This document shows, piece by piece, positions 3,487 to 63,892 of a stretch of 64,000 nucleotides of DNA. Source of the DNA: Meandrina meandrites (lineage: Eukaryota; Cnidaria; Anthozoa; Scleractinia; Meandrinidae); contig OY855905.1 in assembly GCA_963693305.1 (NCBI GenBank), positions 25,223,937 through 25,287,936 on the forward strand, given 5' to 3'. The notes under the pieces are model-generated. The model did not search any database. It worked only from the letters and a program-made list of their open reading frames with translations, and was not told the DNA's origin. A program made the position numbers and the translations under genes. The first letter of the stretch is position 1. Each line of letters opens with the position of its first letter.

Positions 3487-3491
3487 GCAAC

Positions 3492-10654: not shown

Positions 10655-10661
10655 ATTATAT

Positions 10662-10781
10662 TCAGTCCCCCATTTTTTGTTTAATATGGTATTCAATAGG
10701 TTCTGTGTGAATTCCGTCTGGCAGGACCCATCGTTTGTCATAATATGCACTCAACCCCAGCTTCTCCTGTTCGTAAGTTAC
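10662..10781 (-). pseudogene. conserved C-terminal tail of DNA polymerase in the -1 frame
   Basis: After the TAA that ends the main polymerase frame (10778-10780), the frame one base back is open for 39 codons and contains residues typical of the end of Polinton polymerases (GLSAYYDKRW followed by a GIHTEPI segment). The switch point is A_AAA_AAG (10782-10787 plus G) directly before the stop. This is either a one-base loss in an A run or a -1 recoding site. Confidence 0.65.
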
Positions 10782-14644: not shown

Positions 14645-14710
14645 TGTATATTATGTAGAAAAATATTTTTTTATTTAATTAATTGTTTATACACTTGTTG
14701 GTGTGTTTCT

Positions 14711-26546: not shown

Positions 26547-26931
26547 AACGTTACCTCCCTCACTTCCAGTCAGTAAGACACTACCTCTCTAGAACCTCTA
26601 TTTTTATTCGCCCGCTGTAAACACTACCTCTATTGTTATTCAGGGCTAGGTGCATTGTTATGACCTATTGTCTATTGTTTTAAGAACCAATGAAGTAACT
26701 CGTTCCGAGAGGTAGTGGGCGACCCCTTCCAGTTACCTACCTACCTACCTACCTACCTACCTACCTACCTACCTACCTACCTACCTACCTACCTACCTAC
26801 CTACCTACCTACCTACCTACCTACCTACCTACCTACCTACCTACCTACCTACCTACCTACCTACCTACCTACCTACCTACCTACACTTCCTATTTACCTT
26901 ATTAATGTTGCAGAACAAAAGCGGGAATAAG
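26547..26931. repeat. proximal upstream region of the large host gene with (ACCT)n microsatellite
   Basis: An uninterrupted (ACCT)n tract of about 150 bp lies at 26733-26884, ending only about 48 bp before the proposed start codon of the host gene. The tract creates a spurious open frame of LPTY repeats. The number of units is likely to vary between individuals. Confidence 0.8.
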
Positions 26932-27001
26932 ATGAATTTGGCGTCCCTTGGATGTCGGACACTCCTTTTATTCATACAGCTGTTGTGTTACACCAATGCA
27001 G
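26932..27001 (+). CDS. exon 1: signal peptide
   Basis: The ATG at 26932 opens a classic signal peptide with a short N-region and a hydrophobic core (CRTLLLFIQLLCYTNA). It ends in phase 1 at a GTAACT donor. The 113-bp intron that follows is short. The upstream sequence is the ACCT microsatellite, so the promoter must overlap or precede it. Confidence 0.75.
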
Positions 27002-30000
27002 GTAACTTTTGGGTTAGTTTCAACAATGCTAAGTTGTTCACATTCTTTGCAACTCTTCATGGTCCTAATTTTTAAAATTACATAAATAAGTTATTTTTCT
27101 TTTCCTTATCGAAGAACAAGAAGAAGATCCAGATCACATTTTCAGTGGCGATGCTGTCCTTTTTACCATAAATGAAGCAACCGAAACGTCACCATCTTGG
27201 TTAGCTTGCAGCAAAAATGACTGCAATTTCTCAAAGCGTCAGACAACGGAAAATGTGTATACTCACGCGAAGAAAGTATTCCACATCTACGGCAAGGGAA
27301 GACTTACAACAAATGACCCTATCCGCTACGGAGACGAAGTGGCACTGTTCTACAGGGTGAATGACGACGGAGACGGCTTGTGGTTGGGCTGTGCAACAGG
27401 AAGGAAACGCTGTGGACTGGGAACCTGTCCCGGATTGCCACATTTAAACCACTGGATGTGGAACAGCAAACATTCATGCGATGAGAACAAGTTTGTTGTA
27501 ACTGGAAATATGGGTCTCCAGAATGGTACCTTATCAGGACATCCCGTTAAAATTGAACACCAAATAAAGCTGGTCAAGAAATCAAACTATCTATCGATTA
27601 CAAGTGGAAAGAGAAATATGGGTGAAAATTCATCAATGGTAATAGAAACGCCTTTCCTTGACAATTTTGGGAACTGGGTGATCACCAAAGGTACGTACAA
27701 TGAACAAGCCAAAACCTTTTTGGGTCCTGAACGGGTTAGCTACAGAAAAAAGCCCACGCGAAATAGATGTTAGAATTTCATTTAGTTTTTGCTAGTTAAG
27801 CGTGTCTTGTTGATCGTATCAGTTGTGATGATTCTCTCTTCCAAATGTTAACACTTGTTATCAAAATTTCCGCGTTTTGCGTCCTTAAAAAAGTTATGAT
27901 AATAAAAAAACTATTACGTCACGTAGTTACTTAATGTATTTTGAATTTAATAGCTTTTGATACAGTATAGGTAAAGCCTGCGTCGAGGCAAGTGGCCCTT
28001 ACCGCCGGAACATATCCCGGTTGCCAAAGTATTAAGCGGCTGGGAGTATTTGTGCTCCCTCCTGGATAGGATGCTGGTCCATGGCATTATGTGCCGATAA
28101 ACACAGCGCAATGACAAGAACACAACACAACGACCCCAGACAGGGTTCGAACCCGGACCGTTCGATCTGGCACCACTTGTTCAAAGGATGAATAACGCTA
28201 TCCACCGGATAAATCCCAATCCATTATCAACACTTATCCACAGGAAAAATTCTTACTGTATCTTCGATCGGAAATCCGTGGGCCACAGGTTTGTCCGTCA
28301 GTCGCAAGACTGTTATGTGCAACCCTCGCTAAACACTGTAGAATTTTTTAAAGCGATTTATCCGGTGGATAGCGCTATGATAATCCAGCGTGTGAACAAC
28401 TGGAGCCTGGAGTCCAGCGCGCTAACCATTAGGCCACTGCGCCTAGCATAGTGCATGTGTTAAATTACTCTCGCAATTCTTTTATTTCCAGATATGATTG
28501 GCAAGTGTGGAAATAAGCATTATGATGTCCGTTATAACGTGTGTGATAGATGTGGTTCTAAACCTTATGTTCGTCACAAACACGAAACCTGGCGATGTTG
28601 TGCTGGAGAGAAGCCCTATAATACCAAAACATCTCTCTGCTGTGGTGGAAGTGTTAGCCTTTTGTACAATTTGCACAGAAGTGCAAAGGAGGCCAGATGT
28701 TGTAGTAATGTAGCTTTCTTTCCTGACAAACAGGTTTGTTGTCAAGGTAAGATCATATATTTTTCTTTCTTTAGCTGTTTGTCTTCTTGTAACTACTATT
28801 TAACGTATTATGAAATATTTCATACCAATGAAAATGACTAAACGGTTATAAAGCAGAACTATCTTTTTATATTTCTACAACGATTTTTTTAACCTTTAAG
28901 AAAAAGTCCGCGACCTTCCTGGACAAGACACGGATGCTGATGATACTACCGTGCAGTGTTGTGGGAGTGAACCTTACTTAGCAACCCATGGAATCTGTTG
29001 TAATGATGTTATTACACCATTCTACCCATTGAAGATGGACAACAAAGACGCTTTGGAATGTTGTGATGACCAAGGGTTCAATAAACGTACAAGTTTTTGT
29101 TACTCTTGTGGCGAAAAGAAACACGTTTTGCCGCTCAGTGAGAAACAATTGTGGAGTTGCTGTAAAAACAAGGAAATATACAAAAATGAAGAATCCAGGT
29201 GTTGTCACTATGGACTGGAAAAAGGGACACAATGTAAGTTCTCTGTTTATTCATTGCTATACCGAGATTGACAGTTTGATAACTGTCTGAAAACAAGAAA
29301 ACCATTATCATAAAATGTTTCGCTCCGGAGGCGGAGAGAATCGTGAATCTAAGTAAGCTAAACGACTCACAGATTCTACAAGGCTAAGGTTTATTATGCG
29401 AGCTGTTACAGCGATCCTGTATGGTAGGACGTGTCGGGGCGAACGCGCTAGTAGGTTCTGAGTTAAGCAGCAATAATCTGAGGTTTTCCCGATATTACCC
29501 GAAGTTACCCTTGGAGCCTAAATAGATTTTACATGTGTTTGGGTTTTTAAAGGTATCGTCACGAGACAGCTAAGCGAAAAACCATTGGACGTAAATGCGG
29601 TTAAAAAAGGAAATAAAGAGAATTCTACGGAATGAAAAACAGAGCACACAGGTGCCGTTACAAAATGTATTTGGCTGCCAACTTATTAAAAAAAAAAACA
29701 ACAAATCATAAGCAGCATAGTCATAAGCCACTTACACCGCATGTTCGATTCAATGCATATGTGAATGAAAGAGAGAATTTGAACAAAAATATTTCTCCTA
29801 ATCACGTTAGTTCTTCTATTTTGAGGATTTGTTTGTAACCCGTTATCTCATGGATTAAGTGACCATGAAATGAATAACGCTCACTCACTGCATTCTCTTA
29901 CAAAATTAATTTCCGCATTAAACCGGTTTTAACCCAAATCATCCATGAGCTGGCTCACAGGAGTCTTTGATAACCTTATTGATTAAAGCCCGCAATGCAA

Positions 30001-33000
30001 CTCTATCGCTTAGCCCGCTTGCCGACTCGGTCTCACGGCTTCACCGGTCGTGCGTGCCACCCAAAGGTAAACCTGTTTCGCTAGGTTCTCAAAATTGTTG
30101 ATGTCATTACAATAACAAGCAATGCAAAATGTATTATATTAACAAGTGTGTGTTTTTGGTTTAACGCCTACGAGGTTAAGGGCGGTTTGAATTAAGACAT
30201 TTGCATGCAAAATAAACTCAATACTAATTGGCCTCAGTTTCATGTTTTATCTAAATGTTAGTGTAGCAAAACTAAACAAGATAACAAGGAAGATCATGTG
30301 AAAATAAGTCATTATGTAGTTTATGAGAAAAATGTACATGTAGACATATTTTTTGTTTGTTTTCATTTAGGTAAGTGTCTGTTTCAGAACAACACGTACC
30401 TTTCTGGGCAGCGTTTCTTAGATGGGTCAGCCTCTACGTCTTGTCGTTCTTGCGTTTGTAACGATGGAGACCCCGTTTGTGACACGGTTGTATCCTGTCC
30501 GTCTAGAATACCCAGTGAATGTACCTTTTCCCCTGCAAATGATGAGTGTTGTCCAATTTTTCAATGCTTCAATAGTGGTAAGTGATCAGGATTTGTAATG
30601 ACAAAAATAATTGTATTAAAAATGGTAAGGTTTACAACGAAACAAAGCTACAGTCAGTGAAAAAGTCTAGAACTGAATTCTCTTCTTGACAAAGGAATTT
30701 GAACAGACTTTAGCAGCAAGAACTTTTTAGGTGCATTAAGTTAAAATAATATCACGGAAACGCGTTCTTCACATATTGGGTTAGACGTAATGTTCAGTTT
30801 AAGCTAGCTAAAACTTTTAATAAATCTTTAATGGAAGTTGTTGCATTACATCAGTTATTGTCACTAACACCGTTTCGGTTGTGTAGTGAAAATATTTTTT
30901 TTTGCAATTTAGAAATTCACAACTACAAGCTGTTCCTTAGACGAAAGTCCCATGTGTCCTTAGTAACAGCCATTCCCGAGATGACCGCGATGACCATCTC
31001 CTTCTGGATGAAAACTCAACAGGATAGTGAAGGAACAGCTCTTTCTTACGCAACTCGAAGTCAAGTTGACGAAATAGTCATCAAGACACATCCCAGTGTG
31101 AGGGTGATCCTCAAGGGTTCTTCCCAGGGTGATGAAAGGGACTTGGACTTAAACGATGGACACTGGCATTTCTTGTGGATCACGTGGGAGTCCTCTACTG
31201 GCCATTTGTACATCCGTGAAGGGACAAGTACCATCGGTCCTCTGACTTATACTCGAACATCACTAGAGGGGGGTGGATACCTTGTACTTGGACAACGACA
31301 GCAAACCCAGAAACAGTTTATCGAAGCAAAAGCCTTCGTGGGCGAAATTTCCCATGTAAACATATGGAACGAAAAGAGAACAGATTTTGATGTGATGCGA
31401 AAGGACTGCATTGGCTTACACGCTGGCACTATATTTCACTTGTCAGATGATACACTTGACTCCCATCAAAGTGCGTCTATTATCGCGGCGGATACCTGTC
31501 CAGGTGTGCTATCATGTTTATTGACGTTTTCTGTCAATTCTTCACATGTATGACACTTTAGAAAACACTAATTTTTAAATCCAGGTAAGATATATTCGTC
31601 ACTGTATGTTATAAATGTCAACTAATGATTTTCTTATTTTTGTTTCTTCTGAATTAAGACATGGCTTTACAGTTCCGTAACAAAGGGGTCGATGACTTTG
31701 TCAGAATATCGGGCATGCGCAGTTTGACGGCGTTCACTGTGTGTCTGTGGATGAGTTCGAGTGACAGTCAAGGAAGTCCTTTCAGTTATGCTGTATCAGG
31801 CCAGGATAATGAGCTGCTCATATACTGCAACAAATATTTTGAATTGAACATCGGTGGCGAAAGCAGGTACAGAGAGAACGAATTAATTGTGTGCAACATA
31901 TAATTTAGCTTGTTTTGATTTGCTGACTGACTAGTGGCATATCCTGTCCTGGAAAGAGTAAGCGAAATGTACCTGTTCATTTGATAGGAAAAATTATGTC
32001 AGTTAGCACAAATTCAATATTTCAGCCCAGAAAAGAACATCGGAGTACAATAAAAGAAGCTTCGGGCTAGAAATAAAGTGGTGATCTGAACGAAGACGTA
32101 TAGCTTGTCAGCGATCATACCTGTATAGCCTTTTTACTGGCACTTTGTCTATGAGATTTAACAGCTACACGAACAATACAAACATAAGGCGTTCAAATTT
32201 TTACAGGGGAACATCAGTAACGCCTAACGACGGCGTGTGGCACCATATCTGTGTATCGTGGGAAAGCAGTTCGGGATCATGGAAATTCTACAAAGATGGT
32301 GAGGTTAAAGAGGAAGGCACGAACTTCAAGAGGGGGCATACGATTACACAAGGTGGCTCCTTGGTGCTGGGGCAGGAGCAAGATTCGGTCGGTGGTGACT
32401 ATGACGCCGACCAATCATTCAAAGGAACGTTATTGAATGTCAACTTGTGGGATAAGGTTCTTTCTCCTACAGAAATCGAGGAGATGTCAACATCATGTCT
32501 GCTAAATGAATGGAATGCCGGAAACGTTTACAAATGGCGACATTTCGTCTGGGAATCCGAAACAAGACTTGTAAAACAATCCACTTGTGAGCCGCTGGGA
32601 ACTGGTAGGTGACATTTCACGACTAAGAGGTTTTATAAATGTTCAAATCACAGCGTCAAGAATTTTCGATATTTGTTTTGAATGGGGAAGGATTTTGGTA
32701 GGGAAGAGGTAAAAATTATTTTAACTCAATGTTCTCCTTGTTTATTCTAACGAGTCAGGCTTTTTATCACGCCATTATTAGAGCAAGACAACTTGAATAA
32801 ATAAATATCTTTTATCAAGATTTCGAGAGAAATAATTAAGTGAAAGATCCGACCGGGATTGTTCGCTCACTGTAAAACAAAGGCATTTAGTTTTCGTTCC
32901 AAAATCAACCAATTAGATTGCCGCTTTCTTTTTTTTTCCTTTCCGACCAACCGACCCAAAATCAGAAAACGCATTCGACAATAAACGAAAACAAAAGAAG

Positions 33001-48000: not shown

Positions 48001-48910
48001 TAGTTTCTATAATGGCCGTGCATCACAAGAACTGACAACTACCGAATTGGCGAATTTGACTGGCAAAAATCGATATTAAGCGCGGCCTAGCTAGATTTTC
48101 CCAGCTAGACCGGCATCTAGACCGGTCCAGCTGTTACATTTGTGGTGAGAAATATACAAACAAAAATTTCTAAAACCAGGGCTAGTTCCTGCCTTAAATC
48201 TAAAAGGAAGGGCCAAAAAGCTTGCCGTAAAAAAGAGAAGTGAATGAGCGAACGCTTTGGCAAATTTAAGTTAGCTCAGGCATGCAGCTGCAGACGAAAT
48301 TTCGAAGCTTTTGCAAGCACCCAACACGATTAAAAGCGACTCAAATACCCGTAAGAATATGTTTTCACACAATAAGGCTAGAGAAAATGACATTGAACAC
48401 AGTGAGATTGACCCTCCTTTGTCCAAATTCCGTTTTCGTTCGTAAGCAAAAGACAGTGAGAGCAAACCGTCGTCATAAGCGAATTTAGTGTTCTTGTTCG
48501 ACCATGTAATATACATCTTTTTAACCAAGCTTTGTCGGTCTGTAGGGGAGAATCTTGACCTCGGTCGTGAGTACAGACATCACTGTGCTCGGTCTATGCT
48601 CTCCACCTCGGTCAAGATTCTCCCACACAGACTCCTGCTCGGTTAATAAGAACAAAGTAAGGCTGATAATAAGCTTGTGACGTTTAGAGTATAACTGATC
48701 CTGATTGTTTTGAAAAGTGGATAACACATTGATGGCAGAAGCGTATTGTATATATGTGGTTAGAATACAAGCAAACAAAACAAAGCAACAATAACAGAAG
48801 CGTATATTACAAGTATTACAAGACAAAAACCTCTAGGTGATAATGGGTGGCACAATCGAACACAGGGTCCGAAATTGCGACTCACTGGTCGCCAATGCGA
48901 CCAAAGATTG

Positions 48911-48941
<31 letters not shown>

Positions 48942-51900: not shown

Positions 51901-52567
51901 ACGTGATGACTAGTAACATAGTTCGGGGCTATATATATCGGTCTTGATTCTTCGCTGATTAGGTATTCCATGATTGTAGATCATTTGTGTCTCATTCCAA
52001 ACTACTGTAAAATTGGTTTCACAACATCATAATTACGAATCCGTGATCAGCGCACGCATTCACCGACGATCTTCCATTGGTTAGTTTACTTGGGATTTCA
52101 GTCTACCCTTCAGTCCATGTAAGGTTATATCATCAAGGGAAGTTCTATTGTTCTCTCGACATAGTCAAGTTCCGTTAAATAAATTCCCCCTAGGCAATTT
52201 ACCTGGGGATGTTAAATTGGTCAGCTTTCCCTTGGTAAACTGTTCACAAACAAAGTTTCCACAGTGTTGTATCCCCCAAAAACTCCCCTTTAAAGAAGTG
52301 TCCCGTTAACGTACGAGTGCCAGCAGTTGTTGATTTCTCTGCTAAAAGCAGCCACAAAATTAAAATAAGCGCATACATGATTCTGTCACACATTTCCGCG
52401 ACAGTAAATTTCCTTAAATGGGTATGATATTCATTCATCCCTGGATTAGTACAATATCTTTCCTGTTTTAAAAGCTGTACGATTGTTCTTCGTGGCACTT
52501 AATTGACGTTTAGAAATTTTCTTTGATACTGTAGGAAAATCCATTACCTGACTCGTGAATTCCACGT

Positions 52568-52630
<63 letters not shown>

Positions 52631-55600: not shown

Positions 55601-58600
55601 CTTTTGTGTTCTGGTCAGAACGAAATTCTCGAATTCAATAATTACTAGGAGTTATTGGCTCCTAAGAGGGTAAAAATGTGAAATCTAAACTTTGAAACGT
55701 GCTATCTTCTTTTTGAAAAGGGATTTTAAAAATCCGTTTTGACCAGAACACAATAGAGTACACCAAGTTTATGTTCCCTGCAAATCAAGTCATGAAATTC
55801 TGTATCGGTGGAGAAAACTTGGACACAAAATTGCAGGTTTTGCCGCTTCCAAAGACCTACCGAGTCAGTGTTTACAACAATGTGCGCTTTATTCGAAGCT
55901 AATTATGCTGAATTATGATAATTCCCTACGTTCCAGCGCACAGGACACAAAGCGGAGAACAATAACATTTAGTATATACACACTCAGTGATCTTGGCTAT
56001 TCCAGCAATCTGATTGGTTCGCTATCTCGGGCTAATGCCGCATTATTCACTCGCTAGCGAGTGGATAATGCATTATCCCATAAAACAGAAACAAAATGGC
56101 CGGCGTAAACTCACGTTTCGCTAGCATTTCGGAATCAAAATAGTGCAAATAAAAGACGACAGCGAGCCAGAAAACACCAAGAAGGCAACGAACTCTGGCC
56201 TCAAAGTTTTTAAAGATAAGTGAAGAAGTCATGTTTTACAAACCAGTGTTTTTCAGTTTGTTTATCGAGATAATTACTGTGATCAATTCGACCTATCGCT
56301 AAATAGGCAGCAATTAATCTTCACGACTACAATTTGTCTCATTACGAGTATTTTTGTAGACTGGTTTGCCTGACAGAACGAATTTCTCACCGAAATCGAG
56401 GAAATAGAAAAAGAAGAATTGAAGTTTTATATCTCCGCGAGAAAACAAGACAGGTCATATTACAACAAGGCAACACTCACCTCAATTCGAGGCGCCATTG
56501 ACAGGCACCTTCGCAACGAGCCAAACAACAAGCCTTTCTCGATAACTTCGAAAACTTTGTTTGATCAGTTATCGATTTCCAAGCAGACTTTCGATTAAAG
56601 TTGCCGATTTGAACTGTGTAAAAGGACCATTTTGACGAGGACTTTATCGAAGATTGTGTATTTGCCATGTTAAAAGAATCTGTAAATAGTTTTGTACGTG
56701 TTTCACGCATGAATTGAGACGTCAAATTAGACGTCAATAAAATTGCCTTTCATAGGTTTCTTTTTGAAAATGTCTAGTTGTCTGTTTTGAGATCACTTCG
56801 TGTGTATATACTAAAACAATTATTCTTTTCAATCTCGGTGAATAGCGGCAGAATATTTACCTCGCCGCTACGCGGCTCGGTAAATACTCTGCCACTATTC
56901 ACCTCGATTTCAAAGAATAATTGTTAAGTAATTACTTATACAAAGAACTTTAAGAAGTATATTCTCATGAATATTTCGATTGTTGTCGGCTTCAGTCGTC
57001 GCCGTTCGTGCATACTCTTAAAATAAATGCATACATAATTATAGCAAGGGTCCAGCGCGACCTTAATGCTTTTTTTTCTTGTTTCCACATTCAAAATAAT
57101 AAGGGGAAAAAGAAAAGGAAAGAAAAGAAAAAGATGAACTTATAATTAGATTCTTTTTCTTTTTATCTTCAATTATCAACAGGTGAAAGAGACGCACGAG
57201 CCTGCAATCACGGTTGTTGATCTTATCTCTGGTGGTCAATCAAGTAAAATTTCTTTCTTTACTGGTCTCCACCACATCGCTCCAAACGGCAAGTTTTCTT
57301 CCACAGCCGAGAAAGTTCAAAAGGGCGCTCTCTTAAAGTTCGGAGGGTATGTTCATATGACGTCAGAGCAGCTGGGTCCTTTGAATTCCCAACGTCGCCG
57401 TGATACAACGCAACGAAAGTCTGGAGCGACAATGAATGACGAAGATGATCTTAGCGGAGTAGCTGATCTTGATGGAATTGTTGACAAAATCGAAATTCCG
57501 CATTATTCAGACATGAGCACAATGGGTTCAACCAGTTCACCTGGCTTTTCTATTGAATTCTGGATAAGACCTCGGTGTATGCCTGTCGATACAAGTCCAA
57601 TGGCTTTGTTTTTCAAATCATCTCCATCATCTGGTTCAATAAGTTTAAACTTGAACTTAGATGGCTCTCTCACGTTCTCCATGATTCTTAATAGGGAAAC
57701 TCGATTGACTTGCACAACTGACGTATCGGACGAAACTCATAAAGTAAGAGCTTTGATATTTCAGCACATAGCGGTAACTGGAACGGTCGGAAGCTCGCTA
57801 TTTTTAAAAGTAAACGGAGAAACTGCCTGTCAAAGAACCACATGGCAAGGTATTACAGTCTTAGCTGCCTCAAATGAGGGAACACTGGTGTTTGGCGAAA
57901 ACGATGTCGATTCAAGCCAGCTCAAGAGGTTTAATGGCCAAATAAGCAATATTCAACTCTTCAATACGGAAAGAACAAAGCAGCAAATCGATAGAAGCAT
58001 TGAGGAACCAAATCCGACAGCTACCGGTGCCATTGGTTTCTGGTCCTTGAGGCAGTCGGACGAAATAAACGTAGTTCACTACGCCATTTCAAATTCACAA
58101 TCTGTATTCCAATTAGAGGTTCTGGAGGATTATGATCCGGCATTGACTGGCTTGCCAGTGGAGGCAGTTGCTCGAGGTGAAAAGATCTACATAGTTCGTG
58201 CGACAGGAGAAGGTCATGTCGTAGCAAAGAAATTTACACTCAGTGCTGATAAAAGAACCATTGCACCTCTTCCTGGTAACCAAAGAATCATAGAATCAAG
58301 CCAAGCAATAAAGGGTTGTTTAGCAGCAACACGAGACGAAGGGCGAGATCGGTTGATCGTAATAGAATGTTTTCCGGAAGACCAATCTCCCGGAGCCGTA
58401 CGCTTTAAATGGAATGTATTTGAAATTAATGAACAAGAACAAATAAGGCCTACAACTCAAGCTGGGGGAACAGGTTCTTTACTCGTGACAGGCATTGGCA
58501 GTCTCGATACGCGGCTTTCTGCTAACATTGTGAACAATCACCTCTTACTTACGGCCGGGACAACGTCAAGTGCTTCCATCCTTTTCGTTGATGTAACACT

Positions 58601-61600
58601 CGACTCAAACGGTGTACCATCGATTTCAGTTGATCAATTAGCGGCGCGACCTGTTGGTCCTGAGGTAGTGAATAACGGCGCTACATATTACGCATATCTT
58701 AAAAAGGAGAGTGACAGCCCTACAAAGCCCTTTTTACGACGGCTTCGTCCAGAAAATGGTCAGCAATCGAACAGCTACATCATAGACGTAATAGACGTTG
58801 ATCCACGCAGTCTCGTGGCCACTGATCCCATTGGCAGTAACATGCCGGACAATGACTGGTTTTGGTTCTTATTTAAAATTAGCACGTCAAATAGTGAAAT
58901 TGCCATCCAGAGTGGAGAGAGAATTAACATCCAAACCCCCGATAACAATCCTCAAGGCTGGAGTTATGTGAAGCTTAGTTGCCAAACTCTACAAGCAAAT
59001 CAACGTGCTGAGCAGTTAAACTTCTGGATATTTAAAACAAGGTCATGTGATCCGAAAAATGGTGGATATTCCGTTGTGTCTGGTGAAATTGGCCCAAATG
59101 ACTGCATTTTACTTTGGCCGAAAACAGAGCAATTTGCACCTGGTAACTACAAACACATTCTTGCTCTTCCAACAGATAGAGAAATTGAGAATGGCAAAGT
59201 AAGGTTTGGATCCTGGTTTGGCCCCTTGCGTCTCATGATTCCCATGGAACCTTCACAACGTCCGATACCAGTGACAGCTAACTCATCGCCAAATTCACCA
59301 AGATACGTTTATCAGGGCAACAAATACTCCCTTCTTCATTTTGGCGAAGGTATCTCGCTTGCAACACCTTCACCACAGGCAGGAGTAAGGGGTGGTCTTC
59401 TTCAGTTTGCTAAGACCACCGTAGCACCAATTATAGTATCAAACAACGGAAACCCAGCTTTAATTAAACTTATCTTCAGAGGTAATGGGGGATCGTTTCC
59501 TCTTGCGGCATTTCCACATGATCAAAGGGCTAAACTTGAAGTTCTATTCAGCACTGTTTATCAAGAGGGAAGCTATGCCCAACGAAGAATGACCTCAGGA
59601 TTATTTTACAGTATTTCATACACTCCACCCGCAGATTCATCATCTCCAGGGGAGTTCAAAAATCTTGCTCGAATAGGTGGTCTTGAATCTCTTGAATATC
59701 CAAATCCTCCAACTTCATTCATTTGGCTGATTCCACCTCCTTTTAAAGTAACTGGGATGTGTGCTGCAATATCTACACTCTTTCAGTTTAACGATGACAC
59801 GGTGAAAAACACAGCTCCAAACTCGGTTGCTTCTTTGACAGAGGTAGTTACTAACGCATTTGGTCCAGGTAGTTTTGGAGAGGGATTGTTCAAGCCATTC
59901 CTTTCCGTGCATTTTGACGTTACCATACTGAATGAGATTGGTGAGCAAATACATCAATCGCTAATGCGCAAGATAAATGAACATATCCCTAGACCACCAC
60001 CTGCAAGCCCCACTAATAGGCCACCGAGTGGCGCACACAGTTGGCAAGAACTTGGCGATTTGGAAGCGTGCGTGTCATTATCTAACACAACATTTTGGGA
60101 GGACAAAGTCCGAATACAAAAGATCAAAGATAAACTTACTCAAGTTTTGCAGTCGAAGTGGATGAACAACGAAATTTACCAGATACGTGAAGAAATTGCA
60201 CCGAACTTTCTTCGCGACGCTTCTGCTAGATATTCGGCATATGGTGGGATAGCCGTCTTAATTGCCACAAGACTTAGAAGTAAAGAATTTTTAGAAGAAC
60301 TACTTACCAACGACAAATCGTATATTCAGCCTATTTTGGATTCACATCTAAAAGTCTTAGACTTTATTCGACCAGACTTGGGAATAGCGGTCAGAGAGGA
60401 CATCATGAGCGCACTCCTGGCAAAAGAAATAGTTGCGAAGGTTTGTTTCACATTGTGGACAAATTGATGTGTTTTGTAGACTTAAAACAGCCAAATCCTG
60501 ATATACAGTAAATTCACGATATGGTTATATACCAAGGTTTAAGTATATCAAAATCATAAACTGAATTTTTGACTTACGTTTCTCAGTCTCATTGAAAAGT
60601 TTCCAGGATTACGCTTAGTAAGGGTCGTTGTCTCTTTCTATTTTCTGTCCGTAATCAGGTGTGATATATTAAAAAAAATTTCTTTTCGTTTCCAGAAAAC
60701 CTAAAGGTCATATCGCTTCCTTTTTTCCTAAAAGATAAAAAGGTAAATAAAATGAATAAGTATAATTTCCAAAGTTGAATATAAGAATTGGACATTCTGA
60801 TTGGAAGAAAAGCTTGGTTTATGACACTGTATTCACCACTGGGAGGGGTGAATATAACATTTCAAAGCTTGGTTACTCAACCACGACACCTTTGTCATTC
60901 ATTCAAGTAAACATTTTTACAAATGATTACAATGGCCGTTAGACCAAAAAGATCTTTATAAAATGGATAACAGATCGTACCGTGGTTTCGTACATCGATC
61001 ACGGATCACACGGCCACGACAAACTGTGTCAGATCAAGTTTATTCTCTTCATACCAGAGCTACTTGTTAAAGTGATAAGCACAATTTTCCATAAGTTAAC
61101 AACGGTTAAACAAACAAATTACCAAATAATTGTATTTTTCGTAGTGTTTCTTTTGTTCCGTTTTATTGCCTAACTTGTGAGTGAACTGTTTCGCAACCGA
61201 TGTGTAAACTGGTTTCCATCTATGCAAGCCAACACTTGTGTTTGCTATTTCCCTGTATTCTCTCGTGTTTTTTTTGTTTGTTTGTTTCTTTTCTTTTCTT
61301 TTCTTTTTATTGCAGTTCTTTATATTCACTCCATCCTCGGAGACCCAGGGGCAGTTAGTCGGGGCGAAACGAAGTAAACCGGGCAGAAATCGTAGCGGCG
61401 AAAGTTTTCAGGAGAAGTGATAAGAGCCCCTGGAATACGAGTCTCTCCAGACCATTTCCAAGCGGCTCTGCGAATGCTGGCTTCTGATTGAGCAAAAAAA
61501 AAAATCCTTTGTATTATTTTGCCCAATCGGCGAACAGTAACTTCAGAGTCACTTTCGTGTGTTCTTACACTGCAGTTATTGTATCGGCCATATTTTATTT

Positions 61601-63892
61601 TAATTAACATAAGATAACAGAAAAAGGTCATTTCGGATGTCACTAAAAATGATATCTCGACATCCACCGGTAAATTATGTTTGGACCGATCAGAGGTATC
61701 GTAAATGTAAATAGTGTCTTATTTACCTGTGCAATACATATTTGGGGCGGTTCGGCATACTCGTCTGGCCCGCACTGCGTGCATTTCTTTGCAGCACGGG
61801 AATATTCCAGTTGGCCGAAATATCCGAAAATAAAAAAAATACATAAATAAAAATGAAATGGGTGATTGATGTGAACTTCTAGGTATTAAAAGTACTGGCT
61901 TATATGTATGATTTTACGTTTTTCTGACTTCATCTCAATATTTTGCGGCCGACCGCAATTTTTTCGCACGTGCCAGACGAGTGTGCCGAACGGCCCCCAA
62001 TACGTCGCAAATAGGTAAATAAGCCACTATTTTCGATTCCTTTGACCAGTCCAAGTGAAACTTTCCTGGTAGGTCTTGAAATATATTTCTTCCTGACATC
62101 CAAAATGATTCCCCGAATTTTTTTGGTTCTCTAATGAAAATTAAAACAAACTGCTGTTTGAGAACACACGAAAGTGACTTTGAAGTTACTGTTCGCCGAT
62201 TGGGCAAAATAAAGGATTTTTTTTGCTCAATCAGGAGCCAGCATCCGCAGAGCCGTTGTAAATGGTCTGGAGAGACTCGTTTCCCAGGGGCTCTTATCAC
62301 TTTTCTTGAAAACTTTCGCCGCTACGATTTCTGCCCGGCTTACTTCGTTTCGCCCCGACTAACTGCCCCTGGGTCTGCGAGGATGTATTCACTCCTGAAA
62401 ATTATACTAAAACAATTCGTCTCGGGAAATGTTGTCCGAGATTCGCTTCGCCTTCGGCGAATAATTGTTAAATGTGACAAATAACAGTATAAAAAAAATT
62501 CAAATATTTTTGGCGCGCGCGATAGGTCAAAACGTCACTTAATGCACTTAATGGGGAATATCAGATGGTATTTCCTATGTGATATTCCCTAGTTTATGAA
62601 CTTGCAATTTACGTTAGAACATTTTCTTAAATTAAAATGAATAGAAATGAACATGAATTTTTTTTTTACCAAAATGGGTAGTTCACACGAAGAGATTTGG
62701 TTCCCGGGACTAGTCGCAGAAACTAGTCCCCTCGTGTGTGCCGACCTTTAGCACTGACTAATACAGAGCACGTCGAAGCTAGCATTAACTATAAATGTTT
62801 TTGTTTCCACAAAGCCTTGGACAATACTGCAGTCTCTGGACAAGGAAAAACAAAGGGAGGCCATAAGTGCCGCGATTACAGCAATATATGAAGGACCGAA
62901 TGTACGAGAAGAAGTCCGAACCACATTCATAGGTGTAATGGAGGGATTACTCAATATCATTCTTTATCCCATTACAAGCACGCAGCTCGGAGTTTTTAGC
63001 AACTTTCTTGATATGAAAAAGCTCGACGTCTTACAACATGTTGAACGTTCGCGTGCAAAACAGTTCAAAGAGAGGTTTCTGGATATTTTCGTTCAAGAAC
63101 ATCCTGAAGATGTTGCAAATATTAACGAAGCAAAACAAGCAAGAAGTGAGGCATACAAAAACTTTGATTCCCTGATTGAAGATCCCTGGGACACAAGCGA
63201 CATAGGCCCATGGGAGGAAAATTATAGAGAATTTGAGAAACTAACTAAGATGAGTCAAAAAAGGTATCAGCTCCGCGCGCTATTTAGTGACAAGTTGGAA
63301 AACGTAGACCTTTCTTTTACCGAGACACCACCCAATGTTCTCCACGCGGTTATACTCAACAATCCTCGTTTGGTCGCTGGTATGTCGCATACGTTTAACT
63401 TGTTAGGAACAATTGGTGCTACCTATAGCGTATTTAAAGAAGTCTTCACTCCAGGCAGTGACTTTCGCCAAGGTGACCCGAGAGCTGTCATGTCTGTCGT
63501 AGCAACCGCTATTGGTGGCGTAGGATCTGTTAAAGGAACGTTCGACTTACTTAAAGTTTTGAAAGAAAAATTATTCGGGCCACACGAAACTCCAAAGACC
63601 TACTCCTCTCTTAGAACTCCCGAGGAATTAGCCACATTCGAGGAAGAGTTAGTAACAGAGGTTGGTGTGGACCTGACAAACATGGAGAGAGCTAGTAGCA
63701 GGCTGGCTCGTATGGCGGAGGCCAAAACAATAGGACGCGTTTTTACAGCTTTTGGGGTTGTTGCTGACGGCATTTTCTTTGGTATAAGCGTGTATGACCT
63801 GTACATGGATTTCAACGCAGACACCAAGGATGATTGGAAAATAGCAGACGACTTCTTGTTCGCAGCTTCTGCCGGCATAGGAGCTGCTCTTG
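26932..63892 (+). CDS. giant secreted galaxin/VWC/multi-pentraxin/C-type lectin protein gene, 3' end outside window
   Basis: Gene-level entry. I propose 29 exons: 26932-27001, 27115-27690, 28492-28746, 28901-29233, 30371-30577, 30913-31503, nine pentraxin exon pairs from 31659 to 51898, 53020-53049, 53584-53991, 54587-54594, 57183-60440 and 62815-63892. Every junction has GT/AG and matching phase, with a total of 12319 coding bases and more than 4100 residues. A signal peptide makes it secreted, and pentraxin plus C-type lectin domains point to calcium-dependent binding of microbes, glycans or matrix. Introns 29234-30370, 40857-41639, 43336-44293, 44508-45202, 50493-50945 and 51160-51506 show nothing recognisable. 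The 3' half being the same gene depends on the 8-nt microexon. Confidence 0.75.
27115..27690 (+). CDS. exon 2: Cys/Trp-rich N-terminal domain, possibly beta-trefoil-like
   Basis: The acceptor is TTCCTTATCGAAG and the donor GTACGT, phase 1 to 1. The 192-residue segment has two similar halves of the kind 'GDAVLFTI ... WLACSKNDC' and 'YGDEVALFYRV ... WLGCATGRK', then FVVTGNMGLQNGTLSGHPVK and a YLSI ending. Repeating GD-V-L units with W-L-x-C suggest a beta-trefoil or similar carbohydrate-binding fold; this is a guess from pattern. The frame runs on to a stop at 27773, so intron retention would give a short secreted protein of about 243 residues. Confidence 0.72.
27969..28443 (-). mobile_element. 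tRNA-derived SINE interrupted by a MITE
   Basis: On the minus strand the unit starts AGGCGCAGTGGCCTAATGG, an RNA polymerase III A box, and later has a GGGTTCGAACCC B box, then a body with ACCAGCATCCTATCCAGGAG and the end GCAGGCTTTACCT. The A-box and B-box halves are separated by the palindromic element at 28170-28406. It lies in intron 2 and ends 48 bp before exon 3. Confidence 0.75.
28170..28406. mobile_element. Harbinger-like MITE nested in the SINE, TSD CTG
   Basis: The ends GCACCACTTGTTCAAAGG and GAACAACTGGAGC match the MITE at 26399. CTG lies on both sides (28167-28169 and 28407-28409), and removing the element restores a continuous tRNA-like SINE head. The centre differs from the 145-bp copy and carries about 100 bp of unrelated sequence. 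Confidence 0.75.
28492..28746 (+). CDS. exon 3: galaxin-like di-cysteine repeats
   Basis: The acceptor is TTTTATTTCCAG and the donor GTAAGA, phase 1 to 1. The 85-residue segment has four CC pairs spaced as in galaxin (RCCAGEKPYNTKTSLCCGG, then ARCCSNVAFFPDKQVCCQG), plus CDRCGSKPY. Galaxins are coral extracellular matrix proteins built from such repeats, but the domain also occurs in non-skeletal secreted proteins. Confidence 0.8.
28901..29233 (+). CDS. exon 4: second galaxin-like block
   Basis: The acceptor is TTTAACCTTTAAG and the donor GTAAGT, phase 1 to 1. It has five CC pairs in 111 residues (VQCCGSEPYLATHGICCND, LECCDDQGFNKRTSFC, WSCCKNKEIY, SRCCHYG). An acidic linker (GQDTDADDTT) begins the exon. 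The alternating CC and CC-like spacing is the galaxin signature. Confidence 0.78.
29234..30370. other. intron 4, nothing recognised
   Basis: This is AT-rich sequence with no terminal repeats, RNA genes or open frames of interest. A short open frame at 29632-29838 has no support. Confidence 0.5.
30371..30577 (+). CDS. exon 5: von Willebrand factor type C domain
   Basis: The acceptor is TTTTCATTTAG and the donor GTAAGT, phase 1 to 1. The 69 residues show the VWC cysteine pattern (KCLFQNNTYLSGQRF, CRSCVCNDGDPVC, ECCPIFQC) with ten cysteines. VWC domains usually bind growth factors or mediate assembly of extracellular proteins. Confidence 0.82.
30913..31503 (+). CDS. exon 6: single-exon LamG/pentraxin-like domain, degenerate
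   Basis: Phase 1 to 1, 197 residues. It aligns by eye with the downstream pentraxin domains (AMTISFWMKT, WHFLWITWESS, GGYLVLGQRQQ, FVGEISHVNIWN), but the two conserved disulphide cysteines and the calcium-binding EQDS motif are replaced, by Leu/Ser and RQQT. Unlike the others it is not split by an intron. It may be the ancestral or a structural, non-calcium-binding unit. Confidence 0.75.
31659..32604 (+). CDS. pentraxin domain 1 (exons 7 and 8)
   Basis: Exons 31659-31866 and 32207-32604, joined at phase 2. The first half has FTVCLWMSSS and FSYAVSGQDNELLIY; the second has HHICVSWESS, which fits the PROSITE pentraxin pattern H-x-C-x-[ST]-W-x-[ST], and the calcium-site motif LGQEQDSVGG with FDxxQSF-type residues (DYDADQSFKG). 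The two cysteines are those of the conserved pentraxin disulphide. This copy lacks two codons (GN) in the first half and has an extra Cys (IYCNK). Confidence 0.85.
32605..33219. other. intron 8, first part, nothing recognised
   Basis: AT-rich intron sequence before the foldback element; no gene or repeat was recognised. Confidence 0.4.
33220..34806. mobile_element. foldback element with arms of about 650 bp
   Basis: The left arm 33220-33874 and right arm 34180-34806 are inverted copies with roughly 90 percent identity by eye. They enclose a 305-bp spacer that contains a nested hairpin element (33886-33999). Both arms hold a similar open frame (plus strand from 33276, minus strand from 34751) reading LRKTERIDAKCLIKN. 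This frame lacks a recognised domain and is probably not a gene. No clear target duplication was found. Confidence 0.65.
33886..33999. mobile_element. AACAATTATT hairpin element, copy 1
   Basis: The palindrome starts AACAATTATTCCATTCG and ends CATGGAATAATTGT, with the inner stem GTTGGATACGAG and a small CGGCGCTTCGCGCC loop stem. TAA lies on both sides (33883-33885 and 34000-34002). Copies 2 and 3 lie at 56815 and 62411. Confidence 0.65.
34807..35285. repeat. interspersed repeat ending in a hairpin, related to 48003-48655
   Basis: Segments near 34010-34110 and 34820-35285 recur at 48010-48120 and 48230-48655 (shared TCGATATT and AATACCCGTAAGAATAT blocks). The right end is a large hairpin at 35153-35281: CTTATTAACCGAGC and GGGAGAATCTTGACC against their complements. 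It is probably the decayed end of a non-autonomous DNA transposon. Confidence 0.5.
35415..36785 (+). CDS. pentraxin domain 2 (exons 9 and 10)
   Basis: Exons 35415-35628 (214 nt) and 36388-36785 (398 nt), phases 1-2-1. The first half starts DNAFHFPKKGIND with FTVCLWMNSS; the second half has HHICVTWEKN and LGQEQDSVGGDFDATQSFQG. The disulphide cysteines and the EQD calcium ligands are present. The last PROSITE position is Lys instead of Ser/Thr. It ends CTLLGAG before a GTAAGT donor. Confidence 0.85.
35684..35769 (-). mobile_element. tRNA-like SINE fragment
   Basis: On the minus strand this reads GCCTAGCTCACCAAGAG, then GTAACTCAGTGCTAGAGCG (A-box-like) and GGGTTCGTTTCCCGTCGGGG (B-box-like). It looks like a tRNA-derived SINE head rather than a functional tRNA, because the acceptor stem does not pair. 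It lies in intron 9. Confidence 0.5.
36803..37135. mobile_element. small TIR element in intron 10
   Basis: The ends GGGGTGCTTGCCATTT and AAATGGTAAGCACCCC are inverted with one mismatch, about 333 bp apart. Repeated TTACCATT and GGAAATTTC motifs lie inside. There is no transposase and no clear target duplication. It starts only 17 bp after the donor of exon 10. Confidence 0.55.
37485..38646 (+). CDS. pentraxin domain 3 (exons 11 and 12)
   Basis: Exons 37485-37698 and 38246-38646. The first half has DYAFHFPEKGVTD and FTVCLWMSSS; it is not visible as a long ATG frame but is open throughout. The second half has HQICVSWERG and LGQEQDSVGGGFDADQSLQG. The donor of exon 12 is the weaker GTGCGT. The second-half exon is one codon longer than in domain 2. 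Calcium ligands and cysteines are kept. Confidence 0.82.
38992..39325. mobile_element. TTAA-bounded MITE in intron 12
   Basis: The unit runs from TTAAGGTCACTGGCGACAG to GAGCCACCTTAA. Its sequence recurs around 54648-55301 (shared CTACAATCATGGT, CCAGTGATTG and GGTGACCCCTATTTTTTAT blocks). The terminal similarity is short and imperfect; the TTAA bounds suggest a piggyBac- or Kolobok-type origin. Confidence 0.5.
39700..40856 (+). CDS. pentraxin domain 4 (exons 13 and 14)
   Basis: Exons 39700-39913 and 40456-40856. The first half reads DYAFNFPDKGVTD, FTICLWMSSS and SGEGNDNELVIDYDRY. The second half has HHICVSWENN and LGQEQDSVGGGFDTSQSLQG, ending CEPYKIMG before GTAGGT. All calcium-site residues and both cysteines are present. 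The intron between the halves contains a 280-bp MITE. Confidence 0.85.
39944..40223. mobile_element. MITE rich in GAGAGT motifs, TSD TTA
   Basis: The ends AGCCCAGGCCAAAC and TTTGGCCCAGGCT are imperfect inverted repeats, flanked by TTA (39941-39943 and 40224-40226). The interior is made of many ATGAGAGTT/ACTCTCATC units in both orientations, so it can fold extensively. A TTA duplication fits the TWA preference of Harbinger elements. Confidence 0.6.
41640..43335 (+). CDS. pentraxin domain 5 (exons 15 and 16)
   Basis: Exons 41640-41847 (208 nt, lacking the GN codons like domain 1) and 42935-43335. The first half reads DHAFNFPEKGVND with KLSNMRGLTAF; the second half has HHICATWASN, which fits the PROSITE pentraxin pattern, and LGQEQDSVGGGFDASQSFQG. 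It ends CKPFETLG before GTAAGA. The ligands are intact. The intervening intron holds a decayed Harbinger-like MITE, a (TCATAG)n run and a palindrome. Confidence 0.85.
42352..42379. repeat. (TCATAG)n microsatellite
   Basis: About 4.5 copies of the hexamer TCATAG lie in intron 15. Confidence 0.75.
42476..42605. repeat. imperfect palindrome in intron 15
   Basis: The left arm CTAACCTAGCTTGCTCGAG with CTGGGGATTATTGGCC mirrors the right arm GGCCAGTATTCCCCAG with CGAGCCTCGTGCTTGG. The centre contains TACGAAATTGCTGCGCTCGG. It is probably a hairpin MITE. Confidence 0.5.
43336..44293. other. intron 16, nothing recognised
   Basis: There are no terminal repeats or coding signals. A short open frame at 43841-44056 lacks support. 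Confidence 0.5.
44294..45600 (+). CDS. pentraxin domain 6 (exons 17 and 18)
   Basis: Exons 44294-44507 and 45203-45600. The first half has DYALHFPDKGVSD and SGNRKGTLFSYAVSG; the second half starts SVTTVSAHDGAWHH rather than the usual RxTSVTA, then HHICVSWESS (fits the PROSITE pattern) and LGQEQDSVGGSFDSSQSLQG. It ends CKKVEVG before GTATGT. Calcium ligands and cysteines are kept. Confidence 0.85.
45721..45940 (+). mobile_element. tRNA-derived SINE in intron 18
   Basis: The head GAGGCGCGGTGGCCTAATGG is A-box-like. The body has GTGTAAATGGGTACCGGCG, then GCGATGGACTAGCATCCCGT and CCAGGGGGGAGTAG, and the end is TATACAGACTTTACC. The body and end resemble the SINE at 27969 (ACCAGCATCCTATCCAGG, AGGCTTTACC), so both belong to one family in opposite orientation. 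Confidence 0.7.
46320..47318 (+). CDS. pentraxin domain 7 (exons 19 and 20), Trp lost
   Basis: Exons 46320-46533 (donor GTGACG) and 46921-47318 (donor GTACAG). The first half reads DYVFNFPEKGVND and MRSLTDFTVCLW. The second half has HHICVSRERN: the conserved Trp of the pentraxin signature is replaced by Arg and the neighbouring strand has an extra Cys (WKFCKDG). The LGQEQDSVGGDFDATQSFQG calcium motif is intact. It may be a weakened unit. Confidence 0.83.
46608..46712. mobile_element. decayed Harbinger-like palindromic MITE
   Basis: GGTTGTTCAGAAGAACAAC, ATCGCTATCCGCTAGTG and CCACTGGATAGTGATTTATC match parts of the element at 26399. The right terminus is lost. Confidence 0.45.
47756..50492 (+). 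CDS. pentraxin domain 8 (exons 21 and 22)
   Basis: Exons 47756-47972 (217 nt) and 50092-50492. The first half has no internal long ATG frame but is open; it reads DYAFHFPEKGVND with an extra Gly codon (MRSGLTAFTICLW). The second half has HHICASWESS (fits the PROSITE pattern) and LGQEQDSVGGGFDTSQSFEG, ending CEPFGNLG before GTAAGT. The 2.1-kb intron between the halves, the largest splitting a pentraxin domain, carries an interspersed repeat and a hAT-like element. Confidence 0.82.
48003..48655. repeat. interspersed repeat related to 34010-35285
   Basis: The left part matches 34010-34110 (AACTACC(A/G)AATT blocks) and the right part matches 34820-35285, including the terminal hairpin AACCAAGCTTTGTCGG ... 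CTGCTCGGTTAATAAG. This copy lacks the foldback arm found in the first copy. Confidence 0.5.
48863..49658. mobile_element. hAT-like non-autonomous element, TSD GAACA
   Basis: The termini are CAGGGTCCGAAATT and AATTTCGGACCCTG, perfect 14-bp inverted repeats beginning CAGGG as in hAT elements. A 5-bp direct repeat GAACA flanks them (48858-48862 and 49659-49663). Subterminal (T)GGCGACCAA motifs are repeated at both ends. There is no transposase frame. Most hAT elements give 8-bp duplications; 5 bp is known for one hAT group. Confidence 0.75.
50946..51898 (+). CDS. pentraxin domain 9 (exons 23 and 24)
   Basis: Exons 50946-51159 and 51507-51898 (392 nt, two codons shorter than domain 1). The first half reads DYAFDFPDKGVHD and SGEGNDNELLIEYNGSFD; the second half has HHICVSWENG and LGQEQDSVGGGFDTTQSFQG, and ends CKPVEEG before GTACGT. 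It is the last of the nine split pentraxin domains. Calcium ligands and cysteines are conserved. Confidence 0.85.
52533..52680. mobile_element. long perfect-stem hairpin element
   Basis: The 148-bp palindrome has AGGAAAATCCATTACCTGAC at the left end and its complement at the right, inner CCGATATCGCAC and a short CGCGAAGCG loop. The stem is close to perfect over about 65 bp, which suggests recent insertion or ongoing correction. It lies in intron 24. Confidence 0.65.
53020..53049 (+). CDS. 30-nt linker exon
   Basis: A TTTTTTCTTTTAG acceptor and a GTAAGA donor frame 30 bases that keep phase 1 to 1 and encode VSGAKSLPNT when joined. It links the last pentraxin domain to the C-type lectin exon. 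Support is splice-signal quality and phase only. Confidence 0.55.
53390..53490. repeat. (GAT)n and (ATT)n microsatellites
   Basis: GATGAT units at about 53408-53438 are followed by ATTATT units to about 53490. They lie in the intron before the C-type lectin exon. Confidence 0.7.
53584..53991 (+). CDS. C-type lectin-like domain exon
   Basis: Phase 1 to 1, 136 residues. The fold is recognisable from DWTYWNGHYYYF, SWFSAEGVCREHGETVHLSS, EQWIGLTDH and DFTNWADGEPN with CGAMRPDGTWIDVACRK and FTCKTS. The EPN motif of mannose-type calcium site 2 is present, but the WND partner is WID, so sugar binding may be weakened. It is a single exon placed after the pentraxin array. Confidence 0.88.
53992..54586. 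other. intron after the C-type lectin exon
   Basis: AT-rich sequence with no recognised repeats or genes; an open frame at 54050-54364 has no support. Confidence 0.45.
54587..54594 (+). CDS. proposed 8-nt microexon
   Basis: GAAACACA lies between TTTATTGACAG and the strong donor GTGAGT. It changes phase from 1 to 0, which is exactly what is needed to join the C-type lectin exon (ends in phase 1) to the large exon at 57183 (open in phase 0). It would add Gly-Asn-Thr. No other exon with this property was found between them, but the evidence is indirect. Confidence 0.4.
54648..55301. mobile_element. composite TTAA-bounded MITE copies
   Basis: The left part matches the element at 38992 (GGTGACTGGCTACCG, GATGACCCCTATTTTTTAT). 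From 54966 the sequence TTAAGGTGGCTC is mirrored by GAGCCACCTTTAA ending at 55301. Internal blocks appear in both orientations (GTTACCATAGCAAC and GTTGCTATGGTAAC), so two copies probably inserted head to head. Confidence 0.5.
55298..57066. mobile_element. TTAA-flanked 1.77-kb element with 20-bp TIRs
   Basis: TTAA at 55298-55301 and 57063-57066 flank inverted ends GGCCGCGCTGGACCCTTGCT and AGCAAGGGTCCAGCGCGACC, which match at 19 of 20 positions. The interior has no transposase; it contains a hairpin copy at 56815. The left TTAA is shared with the end of the neighbouring MITE. The piggyBac or Kolobok superfamily is likely. Confidence 0.65.
56815..56924. mobile_element. AACAATTATT hairpin element, copy 2
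   Basis: The palindrome begins AACAATTATTCTTTTCAATC and ends AAAGAATAATTGT, with the inner stem GAGGTGAATAG and loop CCGCTACGCGG. TAA lies on both sides (56812-56814 and 56925-56927). It is nested in the 1.77-kb element. Confidence 0.65.
57183..60440 (+). CDS. large exon: LamG-like domain plus long unrecognised region
   Basis: 3258 nt, phase 0 to 0, 1086 codons without an intron. It is preceded by a long pyrimidine tract and CAACAG, and ends at a weak GTTTGT donor; reading past the donor gives a stop at 60467. Residues about 90-290 form a LamG/concanavalin-like domain (GIVDKIEIPHYSDM, FSIEFWIRPRC, FQHIAVTGTV, GQISNIQLFN). The rest has beta-rich segments (GEKIYIVRATGEGHVVAKKF, PGNYKHILALPTDREI) and a helical C-terminus; no family was recognised. 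If the microexon is wrong this would be a separate gene with an unseen start. Confidence 0.7.
60441..61331. other. intron between the last two exons, first part
   Basis: AT-rich, with a polypyrimidine TTTTC-rich tract near 61280-61310. No gene or repeat was recognised before the foldback element that starts at 61332. Confidence 0.45.
61332..62385. mobile_element. Mutator-like foldback element, 9-bp TSD
   Basis: A 1054-bp element with long inverted arms (61332-61667 and about 62100-62385) beginning CATCCTCGGAGACCCAGGGG on the left and matching on the right. TATTCACTC flanks it (61323-61331 and 62386-62394), a 9-bp duplication typical of Mutator-like elements. A second hairpin (TTCGGCATACTCGTCTGG and its near complement, about 61750 and 61970) lies inside. 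Open frames in the arms mirror each other and are not genes. Confidence 0.78.
62411..62468. mobile_element. AACAATTATT hairpin element, copy 3 (short)
   Basis: This starts AACAATTCGTCTCGGG and ends CGGCGAATAATTGT, with TAA on both sides (62408-62410 and 62469-62471). It is a shorter, internally deleted relative of copies 1 and 2. Confidence 0.5.
62815..63892 (+). CDS. exon with helical and hydrophobic segments; gene continues
   Basis: The acceptor is TTTTGTTTCCACAAAG and the donor GTAAGT, phase 0 to 1, 359 codons. It starts PWTILQSLDKEKQREA, is largely helical, and has three hydrophobic stretches: AVMSVVATAIGGVGSV, FTAFGVVADGIFFGISVYDL and FLFAASAGIGAALG. Such Gly/Ala-rich helical hairpins are seen in pore-forming or translocation regions of large toxins and in some membrane-active proteins. 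No family is recognised; the comparison is by eye only. Confidence 0.7.

Follow-up and report, generated by a model that had tools for sequence, protein, structure and literature searches.

Pentraxins are individual subunits, and their avidity arises when these assemble; the neuronal pentraxins (NP1 and NP2), CRP, SAP, and PTX3 each possess one pentraxin domain per chain. In C-type lectins, the EPN (or QPD) and WND sequences are the calcium motifs. We analyzed a 64,000-nucleotide stretch of the coral Meandrina meandrites genome (hereafter the window; C3:25223937-25287936, contig OY855905.1, in an assembly of 551 Mb) that contains a giant lectin gene on the plus strand. Its pentraxin domains share the fold family, the canonical cysteines, and the calcium-site letters with NP1/NP2, CRP, SAP, and PTX3, whereas the coral chain would hold nine such domains along with other lectin modules, in contrast to the single domain of the classical short and long pentraxins. 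Like CD23, langerin, and LY75, it possesses a Lectin_C domain with an EPN motif (residue 2605), but WID is present where WND is usual and no WND was found; this lectin is a single domain at the hinge between the array and the tail. Galaxin_repeat, which is shared with the galaxins, is confined to a short part of the head (two exons above the cut-off).

Polydom/SVEP1 is reported to be a large secreted mosaic protein with a pentraxin domain in cnidarians and vertebrates (PMC12549020). It contains one central pentraxin accompanied by VWA, Sushi, EGF, and hyalin repeats, as opposed to nine pentraxins in the coral chain. The Pfam families for VWA, Sushi, EGF, and hyalin were absent at E 0.01 from the Oculina patagonica counterpart described below, in a scan that was not fully sensitive (it also missed Lectin_C). 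Among the best-listed titles and abstracts of open-licence PMC papers we found no pentraxin array of this kind, in agreement with a preliminary description of the locus that had called its architecture unfamiliar.

Gene model and domain composition

The window contains 28 in-phase exons of the gene (26932-63892; 12,331 nt; 0 stops), and three exons located beyond the window complete a model of 31 exons encoding 4,254 amino acids with 102 cysteines (Table 1). The preliminary description had confined the gene to 26932-63892, with 29 exons and 12,319 coding bases; all of the domains that it named were recovered on the plus strand, but its exon and base counts differ from ours and its 3' limit required revision. 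From the start codon through the C-type lectin exon, 25 exons (7,951 nt) encode 2,650 amino acids with no stop. The predicted chain begins with a signal peptide, an N-terminal domain without an assigned family, two galaxin exons, a VWC-like domain, a degenerate pentraxin/LamG domain, and nine pentraxins, followed by the C-type lectin, a linker, a ConA-like domain, a beta region without an assigned family, and a helical C-terminus with three hydrophobic segments. The first automatic model contained micro-exons (48280-48401, 49623-49665, 52102-52118, 53020-53049, and 53234-53267) that were dropped or corrected by hand, as were a linker that was too short and a pentraxin 1 that started late, at 31800.

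Table 1. Exons of the gene model, in window numbering (continued past the window end for exons 29 to 31).
Feature	Position	Strand	Evidence or remark
Exon 1, signal peptide MNLASLGCRTLLLFIQLLCYTNA with start codon	26932..27001	+	judged by eye from letters
Exon 2, N-terminal domain without assigned family, phase 1-1	27115..27690	+	33 relatives; 3 genomic places
Exon 3, galaxin repeat	28492..28746	+	PF24748 36.1 bits, cut-off 28
Exon 4, galaxin repeat	28901..29233	+	PF24748 34.5 bits, cut-off 28
Exon 5, VWC-like domain	30371..30577	+	PF00093 25.3 bits, E 1.9e-5; below cut-off 27.6
Exon 6, degenerate pentraxin/LamG-like domain	30913..31503	+	Pentaxin 44.6 bits, Laminin_G_3 43.4 bits
Pentraxin 1, first half	31659..31866	+	exon model
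Pentraxin 1, second half	32207..32604	+	PF00354 103.8 bits
Pentraxin 2, first half	35415..35628	+	exon model
Pentraxin 2, second half	36388..36785	+	PF00354 88.8 bits
Pentraxin 3, first half	37485..37698	+	exon model
Pentraxin 3, second half	38246..38646	+	exon model, PF00354 above cut-off
Pentraxin 4, first half	39700..39913	+	exon model
Pentraxin 4, second half	40456..40856	+	PF00354 above cut-off; whole domain matches NP2, NP1
Pentraxin 5, first half	41640..41847	+	exon model
Pentraxin 5, second half	42935..43335	+	exon model, PF00354 above cut-off
Pentraxin 6, first half	44294..44507	+	exon model
Pentraxin 6, second half	45203..45600	+	exon model, PF00354 above cut-off
Pentraxin 7, first half	46320..46533	+	exon model
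Pentraxin 7, second half, signature Trp to Arg	46921..47324	+	exon model, PF00354 above cut-off
Pentraxin 8, first half	47756..47972	+	exon model
Pentraxin 8, second half	50092..50492	+	exon model, PF00354 above cut-off
Pentraxin 9, first half	50946..51159	+	exon model
Pentraxin 9, second half	51507..51898	+	exon model, PF00354 above cut-off
C-type lectin domain, phase 1-1	53584..53991	+	PF00059 (Lectin_C) 60.5 bits, cut-off 22.6; solved relatives
Linker exon, 44 nt, phase 1 to 0, GC donor, lectin-to-tail join	54587..54630	+	likeness to Oculina linker
Tail exon A, 3,258 nt	57183..60440	+	PF13385 (LamG_3) 45.5 bits; fold match
Tail exon B, helical region, 1,078 nt	62815..63892	+	Oculina P0002 and P0027 join it to tail A
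Exon 29	64056-64263	+	past window end
Exon 30	66089-66270	+	past window end
Exon 31, last	66876-66919	+	past window end; ends at C3:25290855

A TACC microsatellite (window 26734-26884; ∼38 copies, 100% matches) ends 47 bases 5' of the start codon. Start exons resembling exon 1 are located upstream of both paralogues described below and in the Oculina model LOC144642208 (P0028). The N-terminal domain gave no Pfam match and no PDB match better than E 0.12; a protein search with it retrieved 33 proteins. The VWC assignment of the preliminary description stands as a domain-like exon with a score short of the Pfam cut-off, and its LamG domain, although matched by Laminin_G_3, scores slightly higher as a pentraxin and is better named pentraxin/LamG-like. 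We call this exon a degenerate tenth pentraxin-like domain, the calcium motifs of which appear by eye to have been lost.

The nine tandem pentraxins that had been proposed were recovered as 18 exons, each domain comprising a 208-217 nt exon (phase 1 to 2) and a 392-404 nt exon (phase 2 to 1). PF00354 exceeds its curated cut-off of 25 at ten places in the window: all nine second-half exons and exon 6. The nine domains are 60-80% identical to one another, and, in comparison with solved structures, pentraxin 4 is closest to the neuronal pentraxins NP2 (E 2e-35) and NP1 (E 2.5e-35). The motifs DNE, QEQD, and [FY]DxxQS, which we take to be the letters of the pentraxin calcium site, are present in 9/9 window pentraxins. 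When all 36 domains of the four arrays are considered, the N and the QD are invariant (36/36), the first D is kept in 29, the E of QEQD in 19 (D in 17), and the Q of the last calcium motif in 26. Both canonical cysteines are found in 36/36 domains, along with two more invariant cysteines per domain. The retention of these calcium-site residues makes ligand binding by the pentraxins plausible. The Trp of HxCx[ST]WxS, presumably the pentraxin signature, is kept in 31/36 domains (8/9 in the window); Arg replaces it in the other 5/36, including window pentraxin 7 and position 7 of the Oculina array. The genome as a whole yielded at least 150 pentraxin matches (150 scored of 286 candidates), with other clusters on C1, C2, C8, C9, and C12.

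Upstream of the gene, window 352-14650 is occupied by a Polinton- or adintovirus-like element, with a collagen-like protein, a Pox_A32-type packaging ATPase (61.3 bits), and an integrase core (28.4 bits, below cut-off); a 1,290-aa open reading frame within it resembles DNA polymerase B by eye and gave no Pfam match. A rhodopsin-type GPCR is encoded by a single open frame on the minus strand at 16013-16942 (7tm_1, 94.5 bits).

Copies in the coral genome and in Oculina

Searches of the 551-Mb assembly located the N-terminal domain at three places, tail A at four, and tail B at four plus one fragment. Each head locus coincides with one of the four tail loci, and head, array, and tail occur together and in order at 3/3 loci bearing a head. 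Two paralogues extend from start to tail B on the same chromosome (C3:25.306-25.344 Mb and C3:5.084-5.118 Mb), each with the same exon order and nine pentraxins. Their exon limits were chosen with the window phases or an open frame required; in a control that chose the best splice site up to 30 nt away with no phase demand (26 exons per paralogue, start and linker exons left out), 49/52 acceptors and 47/52 donors matched the window phase. Values of dN/dS (NG86) were 0.11-0.48, below 0.5 in 48/48 segment comparisons, and are rough because dS reaches 1.45. The gene is under purifying selection. The lone tail-B-like fragment (C3:25200279-25200536, minus strand, 49% identical) is situated ∼23 kb before the window on the other strand.

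The fourth copy, on C5, possesses the lectin, a linker candidate, and the tail, and tail A is open in all four places. No head or pentraxin exon was detected at E 0.01 in the 55 kb upstream of its lectin. F5/8 type C exons are located upstream (C5:18.910-18.927 Mb) and could provide a different recognition head; judging by eye, the nearer of these appears to exit in a phase compatible with the C5 lectin, and we infer that these exons belong to the C5 gene.

A protein search with the lectin part returned a single match among 2,040 candidates, Oculina patagonica ACROYT_G005997 (P0027; 4,218 aa). This protein exhibits the whole domain order in one annotated chain, with 71% identity over 4,054 of 4,110 residues and ten PF00354 stretches; as annotated it is without the signal-peptide exon (6/23 residues aligned, 17% identical). 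The domain order, for which a search of other anthozoans had been suggested, is thus present in P0027 and in the two paralogues of the coral's own genome. The search with tail A gave 26 proteins, including that of the window. A tree built from 27 tails places the window with P0002, P0003, P0004, and P0023 (100/100) and P0027 with P0009, P0010, and P0011 (99/98). P0027 lies outside the window's clade and is therefore a paralogue as judged by its tail, so that the domain order and the number nine predate the split of the two lines, unless whole arrays were exchanged. The downstream paralogue is probably P0010 itself; both are 74% identical to the window.

Comparison of the downstream paralogue with the Oculina pentraxins placed 9/9 best matches on the diagonal (75.6% identity on versus 60.2% off). 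The positional signal of the window array was weaker, being reached by 4, 6, and 0 of 50,000 permutations. Window pentraxins 2-8 (seven of nine) form one clade (support 95/92), which suggests homogenization within this array. For contigs of at least 100 kb, six equal sizes are common to 10 head contigs and 11 tail contigs, a coincidence only suggestive of head-tail linkage.

Tail structure and possible function

Tail exon A encodes a short N-terminal part, a tribasic RRR linker, the ConA-like domain (LamG_3), a beta region, and a helical end; the predicted model has a mean pLDDT of 59.9. Residues 97-293 of this model match the folds of the PAPP-A LamG and PTX3 pentraxin domains; the likeness found is one of fold, and the PAPP-A protease is outside the match. 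A sialidase reading suggested by NanB rows was rejected (rmsd 14 in those rows, no Asp-box pattern found), and the sialidase and clostridial binding-domain rows most likely share just the common jelly roll with the modeled tail. We also set aside the idea that tail A was recently acquired from bacteria or viruses: scans with two short patterns each, which constitute weak evidence, gave 594 and 16 stretches, none of which was confirmed. RRR is kept in 17/23 relatives covering the site, where the model shows a low-confidence linker, and is missing in 6/23, the two most distant among them; this site may split head from tail. The C-terminus is modeled as helical at low confidence (mean pLDDT 44.5), with hydrophobic stretches at residues 4057-4078, 4098-4116, and 4124-4142, the last of which ends 112 residues before the C-terminus, and with five cysteines in the last three exons. 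The tail had been described as toxin-like; among the families tried, no curated cut-off was reached, and sub-threshold matches of the P0023 C-terminus to Colicin (16.8/23.4 bits, E 0.0065), TcdA_TcdB_pore (10.4/27, E 0.19), and RTX (9.4/26.8, E 0.98) are located over the hydrophobic helices. None of these three families matched P0002.

We propose that the nine pentraxins would bind ligand through calcium, and that their presence in one chain would supply the avidity that other pentraxins gain when separate subunits assemble. With the C-type lectin added, they could form a multivalent molecule that recognizes and agglutinates, its targets being microbes, symbionts, or extracellular matrix. The lectin and tail would constitute a conserved C-terminal unit that anchors the molecule or carries out its effect, with the tail perhaps being membrane-active or anchoring. 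The N-terminal head may be exchangeable between family members because the C5 copy has lectin and tail, no galaxin/pentraxin head that we could find, and F5/8-type C exons upstream.

Recognition of microbes or matrix by this route would have to compete with a role as a matrix or skeletal scaffold, in which the galaxin, VWC, and jelly-roll domains build or bind organic matrix while the pentraxins bind matrix glycans and calcium. The galaxin exons exceed their cut-off, pentraxins are reported in the Corallium rubrum skeletal proteome (PMC7853314), and cnidarian Polydom, with its pentraxin, is reported to belong to the sea anemone matrisome (PMC12549020). Three hydrophobic tail segments are not expected of a plain scaffold, however, and we regard this role as doubtful.

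We consider it unlikely that the protein is a lectin-guided, membrane-inserting effector, whereby the pentraxins and lectin would choose a surface, cleavage at RRR would free the tail, and its helices would enter the target membrane. The P0023 matches to pore formers, the helical C-terminus, and the prevalence of RRR are consistent with such an activity. Those matches all fall below their cut-offs and do not extend to P0002, however; hydrophobic helices match pore-former models by composition, the C-terminal model is too poor for fold comparison, and several relatives are devoid of RRR. A shade less likely again is a one-chain recognition-and-attack protein in which the array and lectin pick the target and the protease-released tail inserts into its membrane, with the head exchangeable and the lectin-tail unit constant.

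The same hydrophobic stretches near the C-terminus could be transmembrane helices tethering a very large lectin ectodomain to the cell, making the protein a membrane-anchored recognition receptor. This possibility appears improbable: no Pfam domain follows the hydrophobic stretches in Oculina P0002 or P0023, the cysteines of the last three exons would be unusual for a cytoplasmic end, and the C-terminal model is of low confidence.

One gene or several

Against the reading of a single recognition protein stands the view that the locus comprises several neighboring, separately transcribed genes (one for the galaxin head and the pentraxin array and another for lectin and tail, or a larger number of pieces), and that the apparent joining is an effect of modules that are mostly phase 1-1. 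The preliminary description had relied on perfect phase agreement. The exons do join in phase, but such agreement is weaker evidence than was held because most extracellular modules are symmetric 1-1 and it comes cheaply. Stronger tests are the order, splice phases, and selection in the paralogues, the linker exon, and the annotated Oculina protein.

The lectin exon exits in phase 1, whereas the tail exon is entered in phase 0; the two do not match directly, and a linker exon is needed. Among phase-1-to-0 candidates in the lectin-tail gap, the 44-nt linker exon ranked first of 293 (score 35, next 25) against the Oculina linker peptide. The best candidates in the three other genomic copies are at the matching place (GNTVSYGPSPSLRK, GNAVSHRPTTSFVEK, and GNTFDYGPSPSVQET, which ranked first among 71, 159, and 642, respectively), with phases required and three or four overlapping versions tied for the top in each; that of the C5 copy is the least certain. 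The score of the window linker in this cross-copy search carries no meaning because the window is one of the two references. The chosen candidates of the other three copies use GT donors, and GC is found only at the window linker. A second tail acceptor is compatible with the letters in the three other genomic copies. Direct splicing of lectin to tail via acceptor 57190 (phase 1) was rejected: as translated, P0016 (...FQVKE) and P0025 (...LQVLPENE) point to a start at CAG|GTG, P0025 leaves no room for the other acceptor, and a linker candidate exists. The linker-tail intron also contains an open reading frame (window 56374-56598) that we take to be a fragment resembling a Crypton-type recombinase.

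A candidate internal start exon encoding a signal peptide (52977-53049; MSYAILKKIVFFLLVSGAKSLPNT), with a good donor after 53049, is in phase 1 and lies downstream of pentraxin 9, immediately ahead of the lectin exon; it speaks for several genes. Our hydrophobic-start filter, set to recover all three known start exons, yielded this one extra start in 27115-63892, fewer than the six that chance gives on the reverse complement of these positions, and gave no start-exon candidate in the pentraxin 9-lectin gap of the two paralogues. The best local scores of the 52977 peptide in those gaps were 32 and 29, compared with 29 for the 95% level of first-gap shuffles. The C5 copy has one candidate start before its lectin, which is in phase 0 and hence unfit for a lectin in phase 1. 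A second, shorter lectin-tail transcript from the window copy is possible, although conservation does not point to such a transcript. On account of the 52977 candidate, we slightly raised the likelihood assigned to several genes and slightly lowered that of the single-gene reading.

NCBI divides the Oculina counterpart of the window copy into two models or more, with the head in LOC144642208 (327 aa) and the tail in LOC144642213 (1,541 aa), a division that also favors separate genes. LOC144642213 starts inside tail exon A, and LOC144642208, which bears the signal peptide, loses frame within the second galaxin exon as read from the letters. Against this split, one Oculina annotation joins all parts, head, array, and tail co-occur in order wherever a head is found, and linker candidates are present at matching places in all copies. 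We therefore regard several genes as quite improbable. A pseudogene or artefact was rejected on the basis of the 0 stops in three copies (partly by construction, since exon limits required an open frame), the open tail A at 4/4 places, and the dN/dS values.

The single gene that had been claimed is thus borne out by sequence comparison, through the annotated Oculina chain, the paralogue order, the linker candidates, the 0 stops, and dN/dS; one gene encoding nine pentraxins covalently linked within a single secreted chain appears well supported. On balance we lean, with modest confidence, toward the complete reading of a single intact gene whose product is a secreted coral mosaic lectin of 4,254 aa that acts in multivalent, calcium-dependent recognition. 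The conserved C-terminal unit of ∼1,600 residues, from the linker on, is largely unclassified. Every one of the four head-bearing genes examined (three from the coral's own genome and one from Oculina) has nine pentraxins, and this conserved number raises the question of whether a geometry or stoichiometry is set by nine. The coral protein would also represent a large recognition molecule from an early animal lineage for which the choice of microbes and symbionts matters.
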